In this document: positions 1,226-63,386 of the stretch, one piece after another
How the letters are laid out: every line of letters begins with the position of its first letter
Position numbering within the stretch: the stretch's first letter is position 1
Assembly (NCBI GenBank): GCA_963921795.1
Contig: OY997642.1
Span: 56,281,331-56,345,330, forward strand
Direction: 5' to 3'
Source: Nannobrachium achirus
Lineage: Eukaryota; Chordata; Actinopteri; Myctophiformes; Myctophidae
DNA length: 64,000 nt
Translations under genes and position numbers: made by a program
The notes under the pieces: generated by a model
Databases searched by the model: none
What the model was told of the DNA's origin: nothing
What the model saw: only the letters and a program-made list of their open reading frames with translations

Positions 1226-1310
1226 GAAAATAGCAGATCTACAAGCTCACAACGCCTCGCAACGCGAGGCGTTGTGAGCTTGTAGATCGTTGTGAGCTTG
1301 TAGATCTCGT
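1226..1310. repeat. H1 palindrome with an extra right arm
   Basis: Left arm GAAAATAGCAGATCTACAAGC, GC-rich centre AACGCCTCGC/GCGAGGCGTT, then the right arm TTGTGAGCTTGTAGATC. The right arm occurs twice in tandem (about 1271-1288 and 1289-1306), so this copy has three arms rather than two. Confidence 0.85.
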
Positions 1311-1438
1311 ATTACAGGTAGTTCACAATTTGGCCAATGTTTGACCAGTTAGTTTGTTGATTACTTTTGATGCCATAGCGGTATTTTTCTTTGCTTTTGT
1401 TAGGCATTAAAAAAATCACACCCGTGTGAAGTGGAGCT

Positions 1439-1503
1439 GTGTGTGTGTGTGTGTGTGTGTGTGTGTGTGTGTGTGTGTGTGTGTGTGTGTGTGTGTGTGT
1501 GTG
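1439..1503. repeat. (GT)n microsatellite
   Basis: About 32 uninterrupted GT dinucleotides. Long open frames across it are pure THTH/VCVC artefacts. Confidence 0.95.
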
Positions 1504-2058
1504 GATCATGTGTACCGATTTTTGTGACATTTGAAGAAAATATGTAGGAAAAGGAGCAAAAAGTGTGTTTTGGAGAAAATTCAAGATGGCGGAAAATCTA
1601 TCATGGCGCAAATGGGCGTGGCCTATATGGGGAGATGCGTCATGACCCAAGGAATCCAGGGAAAAAATATTTTTAATTTTCCGACCTACGGTTCAAGAGT
1701 TACAGGCCAAAACGTAAAGTGGGGTGTTATGGCGCCACCATGCGGCCAAATGACACAATTATTTTTTATTTAATCCTTGAAATCATTATGAACCTCCTCT
1801 CCAAGTCTTGAAACTCTAGCCCCTATGGTTTGCGAGAGACAAATAATTGAATGTGAGTTTTTGCGATTCCCATTATAAGTCAATGGGGAAAATTAATTCA
1901 CTAATAAATTAATATCAATTAAACTATAGAACCTTTCTCTTAGAAAAGTAATAGCCCACGATTCCCGAGTAAGCCGTTCGATTTGACATATGGCGCGAGT
2001 GTGTGGTGGCAAAACTGTGGGACTAGTGGCGTGCCGAAGTTTAGGAAGTTCAGGCTAC
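1504..2058. other. Unclassified non-coding sequence, probably an old dispersed repeat
   Basis: No coding exon is visible. The stretch runs from the GT microsatellite into a CA/GACA microsatellite and contains a short conserved-looking block (AAGTCAATGGGGAAAATTAA). It resembles old dispersed repeat sequence, but I see no terminal repeats and cannot name a family. Confidence 0.3.
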
Positions 2059-2112
2059 ATACAGACACACACACACACAGACAGACAGACAGACAGACAC
2101 ACAGACAGACCC
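2059..2112. repeat. Compound (CA)n/(GACA)n microsatellite
   Basis: ACACACAC followed by several AGAC/GACA tetramers and a short CA run. Confidence 0.9.
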
Positions 2113-60200: not shown

Positions 60201-60204
60201 TATC

Positions 60205-60210
60205 TTTATT
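60205..60210 (-). terminator. ahsg: ahsg poly-A signal
   Basis: TTTATT on the plus strand reads AATAAA on the minus strand, about 215 bp after the ahsg stop codon. It is the first such signal downstream. Confidence 0.6.
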
Positions 60211-60422
60211 AGTCATACATTTCAAACCGTTTTGAAGCAATACACAACATTGCTGTGCATTATTTGCTGATTTTATTGTATAGCACCAACGGAAGAGAAT
60301 GGCACACCTGTGCCTAGCAGTCAGGCAGGCACCTATTTATCTATAGCAGGGATTACACTCCTGCAAACACACTTAACACAGTCTGTAGTTGTGTTGCCTC
60401 TTGAAGGGCCTGAACTCTGGTT

Positions 60423-63386
60423 CTAATCGAAGTATCTAATCCTCCCGGGGCACAGTGGCACTAGATTAATGGGTACCGCCGGCATAGCAGCAGGGACGTC
60501 CAAAGCCGCGTCGGCTAGCTCTTCATCATCGTGTGCCTCTCTCTTCACCATCACGGCAGGGGCCTCGAGGCTTTTGCTGATAGAGGCACTGGCTGTCGAG
60601 TCATCTGCAGGAGCAGGCTCCGCTGCGGCCCCGGGGTCCGCCGCAGCCGGAGCAAGGTCGACCGCAGCCGGAGCGAGGTCGACCGCGGCTGCAGCGGGGT
60701 CGGCAGCCGGGGCCACAGGCACCGCTGGGGCCAGGGGCACCGCCGGGACCACATTCACGGCTGGGGCCACGGGCACCACCTCAAGGGACTCGGGTGACTC
60801 CCCGGACACGGACAGGAGGAGGGTCTGGGCCGGGTTGTGCAGGGCGGTGAGCTTGTGGTGCCGCAGGCCGTGCTTGGCCGTCAGGGTGGCCGTGTGGGCG
60901 GGGAAGGCCGGGGCCGCCGGAGGGACGTGGGCAACGGTGTTGTTGGCGTCCATGACGGGAATCTGCAGAGCGAGGAAGCAATTGTGAAAAGAGACCAAAG
61001 TATAAATTGAGCATACATCTGTGTCAAAAATATCAGATCTATAAACTCACAACGCGTCTCATCCGTGACGTGTTGTGAGCTTATCGTCATATTCCCGGAT
61101 TGTAAATGCAACACCTGGGATTCAAATCCAGGTCTACTGCGGGACAGTGGCACACTAAAGCCAGACATCTTATCCACTCGCTTAAATGGGAATCCCCTAA
61201 CCTCGCCTACCAGGCTTTCTGGGGGAAAGCCTGGTGTTCGTTCACTACAGGCTGTTTGGTTTCCGCCTAAAGTGCGGAAACCACTAGAAGAAGCGGCGTC
61301 GCTTTGATTTGGTTCCCCCCGTTTGTTTCCCCAATCCCTTTTAAAATGCCCGAGTAGCCTTGCGTTGTCTTGCCAGTTGCTACGAGTTGGACTAAAAGAT
61401 GCATATACCAAACGAATCTTTCAAAAGCAAAACTGCTCCACATCAAGGAGTTTATTAGGTAGGCCCTAAAAGTATGTCTTTGGGGAATCATTTTGGGTTA
61501 AAACTGAATCCGGTTTGATAGTTCCGGCAAATTGTAGTCCTTTGAGGACTACAACATGACGTGTTGTGATCCCAGGCTAGGAATCCCCCTTGGCCGGGGG
61601 GGAAATTAAGCTTTAGGGTTTCAGGCAGAGGCTCTGAGACACTCTGGTATACAATAATATGATTTATATATGGTCTGATGCTTTTGTAAATAATGCTATT
61701 GTCGCTAGTCTATATTCATGTATGCAATATACTTAGGCCTACCTTCTCATATATTTGAGCTCATGATATTGTAGATGTTGATCATATTTTGTGCTAGTTT
61801 CTATTAATGTGTCACTAGGTTTGGTGATGGGTGTGCGCTTTGATTGAATTACTGGATGTAGCCAATGGACAGGGAGTCAGGGGCCAACCGACAGGTGTTA
61901 GCCCATAAATGTTTGGTGGTCACTGTAATGAAAGTCGTTCATTAGCAAATCACTCTGTTTTTACATTCAAATTACATTGCAAAAGAGTTGCTGACTGTTC
62001 TTTCAAACTGAAAATGGGGAAAGGACAATTCTTTTCCCCAGCATTTCCTATTTTTGGCATGTCATTAGGCAATGGGTGAAGATTCTCAAAAATAGCCTAG
62101 GCCTATGCTTAATTTATTGTTGCATCGCTAGTGGTTCTAAAAACATTTTCATGTCAAGGACACCCAAATGTGTTAATATTCTAAGTATAAACCAGGGTTC
62201 GAGTAATTAAATGAATTTCTAATTCTGCTGTGGACCCCCTGGAACTCCTCCAAGATGCCCTGGGGGGCCCCGGACCCAATTTTTAGAACCACTGACATTG
62301 CAACGTGTCTTGCAGATAGGCTATTGTCATTGTATCAGGTAGTGTCAGGCTAATCTTACCAGAGTGGGGAACATCTTGCAGTTCACTGCGTGTCCAGCGT
62401 TCAGACCTTTTGCGCTACAAAAGCCACGTTGCTGATGGAGAAAGGAAGGAAAAGTCATCCTCTTTACCTTTGATCACTTACATCTTTTATCACTATATTG
62501 ATGAAAACCATTGGTATTTTGTGAGCTGGTTCTGTAGGGCTGTCAATTTGTACAATATTCAAACCTAAAGGATTTCAGCAAATTATATCTGAATGTTTTC
62601 CTCTGTTATTCTTTAGCAAAAACATTTCATCCTCTTCAAGAACTTTTTTTATTCAAGATACATAAACCATGTGTACTTACTGCCATTGCATCATGGCTGG
62701 GGACACAGTCATCACCAGTGCAGTTGGCCTCTACAATGAGAAACTCTGCTGCATACATGGGTCCACCACTCACTACCTGTAACATAGAGTTGAAACACCT
62801 TTGTAATACCAACAGATCCATTCCTATTGAAGTAAGGACATTAGAAGAAGAATACAATTTCAAATAACCTTTTTATTTTATATTCTATCATCCAAATAGG
62901 TCTGTTTATGGACAGGCTTAGGCCTACCTGTGACGACATCCTCCCAACCTCCGCCACAGCAAACGTCGCGCCGACTGTGTTGTTGTTTAAGGTGACCAGA
63001 GAGGCTCCGACAAAGTCCAGGCCGACGGTGTCATTCAAGGGAAGCAGCGCAGCGCAGCCCAGGCAAAGATCCTCTGTAGACTCTGCATGTCACCAGGGCA
63101 GGGGAGGCATAAGCGCACGTGAGTGCACGCGGGGTTGTGCATGTGTGTGTTTTACTATGTACAGTATGTGAAGGACAAAAGTCAAAATAAGTAGGCCTAA
63201 AGTAGAAATTGAGAAATATACAGTGTGTGTGTGTGTGTGTGTGTGTGTGTGTGTGTGTGTGTGTGTGTGTGTGTGTGTGTGTGTGTGTGTGTGTGTGTAA
63301 ATACCTTCTGTTTTGCACTTGAATGCCTGTACAGACATTACGCCAGCCGTGTTTTTCAGAATCACATCACAGTCTCCTTCAACTGA
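60423..63386 (-). CDS. ahsg: Alpha-2-HS-glycoprotein (fetuin-A), last five exons
   Basis: Fetuin-A is a liver-secreted plasma glycoprotein of the cystatin superfamily that binds calcium phosphate and prevents ectopic mineralisation. Exons on the minus strand: 63386-63305, 63082-62928, 62776-62681, 62431-62360, 60962-60423. All joins keep frame and give 314 residues. The family match is strong: SVEGDCDVILKNTAGVMSV, then CLGCAALLPLNDT (human CPLLAPLNDT), VVSGGPMYAAEFLIVEANC, GFCSAK...AVNCKMF and the terminal CPGRIRYFD (human CPGRIRHFKV). These form the second cystatin-like domain and the carboxy tail. The tail exon is Ala/Pro-rich with VDLAPAA repeats. The amino-terminal exons (signal peptide, first cystatin domain) were not found in 63390-64000 and must lie beyond the right edge. 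Teleosts can carry more than one ahsg copy, so which paralogue this is remains open. Confidence 0.93.
61025..61096. repeat. H1 copy in ahsg intron
   Basis: AAAAATATCAGATCTATAAAC, inner arms TCACAACGCGTC / GACGTGTTGTGAGC, then the truncated right arm TTATCGTC. Diverged but paired. Confidence 0.75.
61097..62128. other. ahsg intron sequence, nothing recognised
   Basis: A short inverted pair around 61215-61285 (TTTCTGGGGGAAAGCC, TTTCCGCC...GCGGAAACC) and a (possibly tRNA-like) ATTCAAATCCAGGTC at 61112. No gene called. Confidence 0.4.
62129..62294. mobile_element. Short hAT-like MITE without H1
   Basis: Ends TAGTGGTTCTAAAAAC and ATTTTTAGAACCACTG with GGACACCC and GGACCCAA blocks. No target duplication was found. 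Lies in the ahsg intron upstream of the last exon. Confidence 0.7.
63222..63298. repeat. (GT)n microsatellite
   Basis: About 38 GT units inside an ahsg intron, ending 7 bp before the donor of the exon at 63305. Confidence 0.95.

Follow-up and report, generated by a model that had tools for sequence, protein, structure and literature searches.

A hairpin module shared by MITE families with different ends in Nannobrachium achirus

A single hairpin, here called H1, occupies the interior of several families of non-autonomous DNA transposons (MITEs) whose ends are of different kinds, in a window of 64,000 nucleotides of the Nannobrachium achirus genome (assembly GCA_963921795.1, contig OY997642.1, positions 56,281,331 to 56,345,330). 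We favour, with a probability of about one half, the interpretation that H1 is an old, conserved central module of these elements, whose ends would have been acquired by nesting and deletion and whose spread would then have followed the transposase suited to each set of ends. What allows MITEs to become so numerous is a standing question. A hairpin common to families whose ends differ, with pairing of its stem preserved from family to family, would direct attention to a step on the host side (replication, repair or small RNA) of which hairpins take advantage.

Results

A sequence-only reading of this DNA had described a palindrome of 60 to 85 bp recurring from 1226 to 61096. The palindrome was borne out, since the arm GCAGATCTACAAGCTCACA matched 73 times in the window at no more than 3 mismatches compared to a mean of 0.02 over 100 dinucleotide shuffles, and the matches, found at 1233-61051, agreed with that range. 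Its tally of about 45 fairly complete copies and a dozen halves is corrected to 29 two-armed palindromes and 22 one-armed copies, as counted with the 16-nt inner arm at no more than 3 mismatches. H1 arms are also dispersed and very abundant genome-wide: exact matches to the 19-bp arm numbered 73,397 (reversed control, 0), and about 0.9 million arms were extrapolated from a sample of twenty 10-kb stretches. Of 63 two-armed copies from the window and sampled loci combined, 36 had an inner palindrome of exactly 53 bp, and arm complementarity continued outward for a further 13-15 nt or so per side; the whole hairpin is about 77 bases long. The consensus reads AAAATAGC-C/A-GATCTACAAGCTCACA-ACGCSTCGC-short loop-inverse. 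The inner 16 nt are nearly invariant and form the most conserved part of H1, the outer stem is the most variable and differs by family, and the hairpin is often partly deleted. A search of the window against Rfam at gathering scores returned 0 matches, a literature search with four arm strings (14-16 nt) matched only a 14-mer in an algal paper, and literature listings for MITEs that are palindromic, nested or chimeric, or that share a core, showed nothing resembling H1.

The two-armed copies from the inner-arm search are given here without strand, by host family. Fd copies lie at 4136..4188 (a variant), 6530..6570 and 17166..17205 (both with a shortened tip), 13331..13383, 19496..19548, 19905..19956, 23170..23222, 28491..28543, 32530..32582 and 55734..55786; the copy at 28668..28720 duplicates the one at 28491 and has an identical right flank. 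Fb is represented at 5261..5313, 21470..21522 (the reference copy), 26277..26329 and 34927..34970, Fc at 14838..14880 (shortened tip), 47919..47961 and 52993..53040 (reference), Fa at 26903..26946 and 31748..31807 (reference), Fe at 8539..8591 and 54836..54878 (with an extra arm at 54896), Ff at 54120..54173, and Fl, with a decayed hairpin identified also by alignment and a shuffle test, at 47152..47204. Further copies were found at 1236..1288 (53 bp), 9698..9740 and 20173..20214 (both with a shortened tip), and 50307..50342 and 50915..50950 (both short).

Single arms from the same search were assigned on the reverse strand to Fb (4932..4947), Fc (25566..25581, 46814..46829, 48163..48178) and Fe (22390..22405, 54896..54911), and on the forward strand to Fd (28960..28975, 32872..32887) and Fa (52130..52145). 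One lies inside a TTAACC-like element (10745..10760, forward), one has a TTAACC-like flank by motif scan (20530..20545, reverse) and one adjoins a run of N (40267..40282, reverse). The others are at 1291..1306, 7513..7528, 12071..12086, 12701..12716, 14968..14983 and 41809..41824 on the reverse strand and at 8039..8054, 17884..17899, 27475..27490 and 61036..61051 on the forward strand.

The hosts are MITEs in being short, repeated and sharply bounded with terminal inverted repeats, as seen in the 192-bp Fl element at 12 loci and in the boundaries of Fa, Fb and Fe; at about 190-480 bp, their length alone would make a transposase impossible. By boundary reading, the Fa element at 31496..31969 (forward) has hAT-like ends of the CAGGGGTCTTCAA type and the 8-bp repeat GTATATAC, with inner inverted repeats TTAACCACTTGAA surrounding H1, and a second Fa element at 26753..27201 (reverse) is flanked by the 8-bp repeat CCATAAAA. 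The Fe element at 22238..22632 (forward) has ends TAGGGCTGTCA and the 8-bp repeat AGATCAAC. Together these two Fa copies and one Fe copy display the 8-bp target site duplication and short terminal repeats of hAT elements, to which, from their ends, we presume both families belong. The ends of the Fb element at 21383..21624 (forward, end position approximate) resemble ATATCGTCGTTGTCGGG. Alignment of loci placed the Fl element at 47077..47268 (forward), its length counting the TA at either end, and end reading delimited an element at 10681..10880 (forward) whose ends resemble TTAACCACTT and CTAACCACTT and enclose a degraded H1.

Host ends of at least six kinds were distinguished: those of Fa and Fe, with 8-bp repeats, those of Fb, the hAT-like ends of Fd, the TA type of Fl and TTAACC-like ends. 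At least eight unrelated host families had been claimed; the differing ends of Fa, Fb, Fe and Fl, several Fd left ends and the TTAACC-like elements uphold this in part, although eight families with both ends mapped were not reached, and the families are less independent than was thought because some are mosaics sharing inner sequence. In Fd, a single left module meets the same inner stem at several distinct joints. Clustering of near flanks, which replaced a single-linkage clustering of 1-kb contexts that merged 137 of 142 copies into one cluster, distributed 190 flanks over 82 clusters, 31 of them with at least two members, and separated the flanks of Fa, Fb, Fc, Fe and Fl. Inward TTAACC-type motifs stood 20-160 nt from 60 of 352 arms, compared to 16 for reversed motifs as a control and 25 predicted by how often the motif occurs overall, an excess to which repeated Fa and Fd copies contribute much; inspection by eye rather than by search showed no TTAACC ends flanking the H1 of Fb, Fc, Fe or Fl. 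A clean TTAA-nested pre-insertion site, such as a piggyBac-like inner element with TTAA duplicated at both ends would leave, was expected in Fa but not found; the only joint-crossing match to an Fa query joined at TTAA, among 40 scored from 2,120 first-look candidates, was an internal deletion.

In Fl, all 12 aligned loci carry the identical decayed hairpin, which folds with a z of -1.87 (9 of 200 shuffles were as good), and an Fl query without H1 had 2,261 first-look candidates. Perfect hairpin folding is thus not needed for spread.

In 22 copies chosen from 36 full-length ones, 92.9% of stem cells were paired and 20 of 38 stem pairs had changed on both sides between families. On four of five measures 0 of 500 shuffles reached pairing as high, while on the remaining one, further pair types, 23 of 500 did, figures that are no probability because the copies are related; arms slid out of register were 30-47% paired. 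Within groups of 46 full-length copies there were 126 one-arm changes, 16 changes alike on both arms (2 expected if independent) and 6 that differed between arms. It is thus mostly from lineage to lineage, rather than within individual copies, that pairing has been restored.

At non-CpG sites the inner arms were less variable than the flanks of the same copies (15 of 966 compared to 207 of 4844); this comparison omitted gapped arms, arms exceeding 5 mismatches (16 rows) and the entire Fe left side, an omission that favours low arm divergence. Two other versions were set aside, one made without flank-only ascertainment or CpG exclusion, in which the differences were larger (inner arms 1-3%, flanks 7-19%), and one including copies fetched for lacking H1, in which the arms looked more variable (18%). 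Beside GATC, one arm has C where its partner has A in all 7 two-armed copies among 100 places listed, and likewise in 47 of the 113 pairs from the within-group set. Because this asymmetry recurs across Fa, Fb, Fc, Fe and Ff, it points to one putative origin of the H1 module. Family-wise arm consensuses derived by fuzzy flank matching were partly garbled.

Discussion

Two interpretations had been offered from the sequence, a mobile palindrome with a preference for MITEs and a module captured repeatedly. A captured or inherited module fits better, because the most variable part of H1 is its outside and the most conserved its inner 16 nt, the opposite of transposon ends, and because joined-flank searches in four families (Fl, Fe, Fb, Fa) yielded no convincing pre-insertion lineage; the mobile palindrome keeps some support. 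Under the module interpretation, H1-bearing elements would gain different ends when one MITE lands in another, through nesting or end exchange, or by internal deletions with an endpoint close to the hairpin. The resulting mosaics would then each spread with whichever transposase recognises their ends, presumably of hAT, TTAA or TA type, and pairing may have been retained because amplification of the element benefits, or used to benefit, from the hairpin. A pre-insertion site was shown for none of the nesting steps.

We consider it rather unlikely that H1 is mobile in its own right, a MADE1- or Angel-like palindrome of about 77 bp which inserts at TA and landed independently in several MITE families that went on to multiply it. 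Its symmetry does stop at d=13-15 beyond GATC, and of 117 two-armed copies 16, belonging to Fb, Fe and Ff or in a few cases unassigned, have a TA at this edge on each side (d=13-14), but 84 of the 117 have TA on neither side and the supposed ends vary by family around a nearly invariant inner arm, where an independent mobile palindrome should have conserved ends. Of 8 Fb copies read, 7, from 6 different places, lack H1 exactly and keep a single TA, as insertion would predict. These copies are scattered among H1-bearing ones on a flank tree of weak support, where the 7 require 5 changes and shuffling gives a mean of 6.1, which suggests repeated loss of H1, as expected between the ACTA repeats beside the hairpin; short direct repeats allow deletion of a palindrome lying between them. 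Repeated gain in Fb is formally possible; 0 of 15 Fb copies outside the joined-query selection were clean. Fe supplied one clean single-TA copy in 12 read, but of 9 H1-poor Fe copies 5 retain stubs and 3 show small local changes; the Fe query lacked a short left-flank block and was wrong at its far right end, so that its scores understate matches. That block was rejected as the mark of an empty Fe subfamily, as the alignment has it in filled copies too. The right arm was retained in all 10 Fl copies read. Independent mobility of H1 is not shown by these copies.

Somewhat less doubtful, though still not what we would expect, is that pairing is a mutational by-product of no benefit to the element. 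Hairpin-templated correction can make the arms of a palindrome alike, and both the two-sided stem changes between families and the excess of alike changes within groups (partly unrecognised subfamilies) are consistent with it, but one-arm changes prevail within groups, and single mismatches (the C/A beside GATC and two in Fd) persist uncorrected through many copies. The case that the sequence-only reading had raised against itself, a single ancestral element behind all H1 families in which the ends alone changed later, appears improbable: host ends are of different kinds and, at the sensitivity of the near-flank clustering, the flanks of five families fall in different clusters, against which stand the common C/A asymmetry, the TTAACC-like motifs around many divergent copies and similar inner flanks, AAACTAGTG or AAAGTAGTG, in Fb and others. 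This scenario overlaps with the module interpretation if recombination swapped the ends.

MADE1-type elements are palindromic mariner MITEs of about 80 bp and nearly perfect symmetry. H1 differs in that its ends vary by family around a conserved inner part and independent TA insertion is not shown; it resembles them as a near-palindrome of similar size, with TA flanks in some families. Further precedents, by analogy, are Angel inside Tol2 and the conserved domains of SINEs. Angel elements are described as palindromic elements of teleosts, one of them inside the hAT transposon Tol2, with two-sided stem changes reported in two copies within zebrafish lncRNAs (PMC8151067; PMC3636048). As described there, Angel shares with H1 the capacity to form a hairpin, its abundance in the genome of a fish and, for one element, a position inside a hAT transposon; compared by description rather than sequence, H1 is unlike it in being one hairpin common to several MITE families with different ends, with paired stem changes that fall between families. 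SINE highly conserved domains are likewise central modules in families that otherwise differ, even across element classes, the V domain occurring in SINEs and in the MITE MER6 (PMC6887750). H1, in contrast, is a palindrome in DNA transposons, and the likeness drawn here is one of architecture.

It is conceivable, although we would not presume it, that H1 is a DNA-transposon counterpart of such a domain, a transferable hairpin passing between MITE families of unrelated transposases (hAT, TTAA, TA), whose holders would amplify better and whose folding would be kept by selection at the level of selfish elements. H1 gives a concrete sequence with which a role of hairpins in MITE amplification can be tested and, even if only a passenger, is a very abundant marker of MITE recombination.

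Abundance and anatomy of the hairpin core

The sequence-only reading had proposed a hairpin cassette common to several MITE families, and H1 is indeed a real, extremely abundant hairpin core common to MITE families of different kinds. In the window, its 19-nt arm (GCAGATCTACAAGCTCACA) was matched 73 times at up to 3 mismatches compared to a shuffle mean of 0.02, and the 16-nt inner arm was found in 29 palindromes with both arms present and as a lone arm at 22 further sites. Across the 1.66-Gb genome the exact 19-mer gave 37,044 + 36,353 occurrences and its reversed control none. 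We also sampled twenty 10-kb stretches by taking two preset positions from each of ten contigs. At least one arm was present in 18 of the 20, with 103 arms over 192,222 readable bases (20 shuffled motifs: mean 1.4, largest 6), which extrapolates to approximately 0.9 million arms genome-wide. Exact 19-mers were denser in the window (11 per 64 kb) than in this sample (6 per 192 kb).

The inner palindrome consists of GATCTACAAGCTCACA and a GC-rich tip; its length was taken from two-armed copies only, and 36 of the 63 gave exactly 53 bp. Most flanks read share AAAATAGC outside GATC; farther out, pairing persists to d = 13-15 (d being the distance outward from GATC) with family-specific letters. 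Folded as single-stranded DNA, four of five copies reached -39 to -47 kcal/mol (z -12.7 to -15.9), and the fifth, from host family Fl, folded poorly (-16.4 kcal/mol, z -1.87). At the base adjoining GATC the two arms frequently differ, one bearing C and its partner A. Of the first 100 places listed, 7 have both arms, and all 7 show this difference; 113 arm pairs comprised 47 C/A, 26 A/A, 26 A/T and 14 others, where A/A and A/T take in families Fd and Fl and were counted across families rather than for each.

At 28491-28720 of the window, two H1 copies 177 bp apart, the second preceded by a C run, are identical in the 53-bp core and right flank; this pair is a local duplication. Elsewhere in the genome, a tandem array of the Fd-type arm GATATACAAGCTCACAG (L006:2139-2708) has 14 arms listed, mostly at steps of 31 and 52 bp, and in a family Fc copy (L016:6950-6650, minus strand) H1 breaks off behind GATCTA and gives way to a long CA repeat.

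Maintenance of stem pairing

Pairing was assessed in 22 copies hand-chosen from 36 full-length ones. Two-sided changes were present in 20 of 38 stem pairs, and on four of five measures 0 of 500 shuffles scored as high; on the fifth, which admits further pair types, 23 of 500 did. Within groups of 46 full-length copies we counted 126 one-arm changes, 16 affecting both arms alike and 6 affecting both differently. Changes were thus mostly one-armed within groups, and many pairs changed on both sides between families, so pairing is restored mainly in the lineages that amplify and not in every copy. This pattern is compatible with selection on the element, and also with rare correction. Non-CpG mismatches numbered 15/966 in inner arms versus 207/4844 in the flanks of the same copies (private mismatches, 15/966 versus 152/4844), in a comparison from which 16 rows had been removed for gaps or over 5 mismatches in the arm, 5 of them carrying the family Fe left side, which was excluded whole. 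The same decayed hairpin was present in 12 of 12 aligned Fl loci, evidence against folding being strictly required.

Host elements and known relatives

The ends of family Fa are hAT-like (CAGGGGTCTTCAA); both copies checked are flanked by 8-bp repeats, and in the interior of Fa inverted TTAACCACTTGAA motifs surround H1. Loci L038 and L024 combine Fa-like ends with a different interior that lacks H1; in L038, the left module of Fd, together with a stretch of TTAACCCATTT, leads into an Fa-type element without H1 rather than into H1 itself. Fe ends in TAGGGCTGTCA, with an 8-bp repeat at the one copy checked, and the ends of family Fb resemble ATATCGTCGTTGTCGGG. Among 29 Fd copies several left ends sit on one inner stem, and one left module meets that stem at several different points. 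Fl elements measure 192 bp, begin and end with TA, and aligned cleanly at 12 loci drawn from the best of 3,071 candidates. Its youth is uncertain, since the identities of mostly 95-98% come from the best 40 of those candidates and a sampled copy, L013, is 89% identical in its left part. Inward TTAACC-type motifs lay 20-160 nt from 60 of 352 arms, whereas the reversed control gave 16 and overall motif density predicts 25.

Tol2 is drawn with an Angel element inside it (PMC8151067), two-sided changes are reported for two Angel copies in zebrafish lncRNAs (PMC3636048), and MER6 is a MITE containing a SINE conserved domain (PMC6887750). The H1 core is a variant, itself new, of known phenomena. Among the listings of open-access papers searched, none dealt with this hairpin or with a core common to different-ended MITEs, and H1 may already be described in subscription papers, Repbase or Dfam.

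Copies lacking H1

Clean sites lacking H1, which the proposal of a mobile H1 would predict, were read only in some hosts, and its mobility on its own is unproven. Using host flanks fused without H1 as queries, we scored 40 Fb matches and read 8, of which 7, at 6 places, were exact H1-minus copies with one TA and the eighth kept a 9-bp stub. Among 12 Fe copies there was 1 clean single-TA site; 3 lacked H1 and had small local changes, 5 retained stubs and 3 carried H1. The right arm was kept in 10 of 10 Fl copies read (40 scored), and the single Fa match of 40 scored that crosses the joint is an internal deletion.

We read the Fb H1-minus copies as repeated loss between ACTA repeats beside the hairpin, with repeated gain of H1 as the less likely alternative. 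A weakly supported flank tree of 23 Fb copies requires 5 changes to account for the 7 that are H1-minus (shuffled mean 6.1), and one of these 7 is 97% identical to an H1-bearing window copy. Among 15 Fb copies obtained outside the joined query, 6 had the full insert, 9 were partly deleted and none was clean. The Fb copies at L063, L065 and L070 (contigs C21, C24 and C8) have identical flanking bases, with clean absence of H1 in two and the 9-bp stub in the third, as if they were one duplicated locus.
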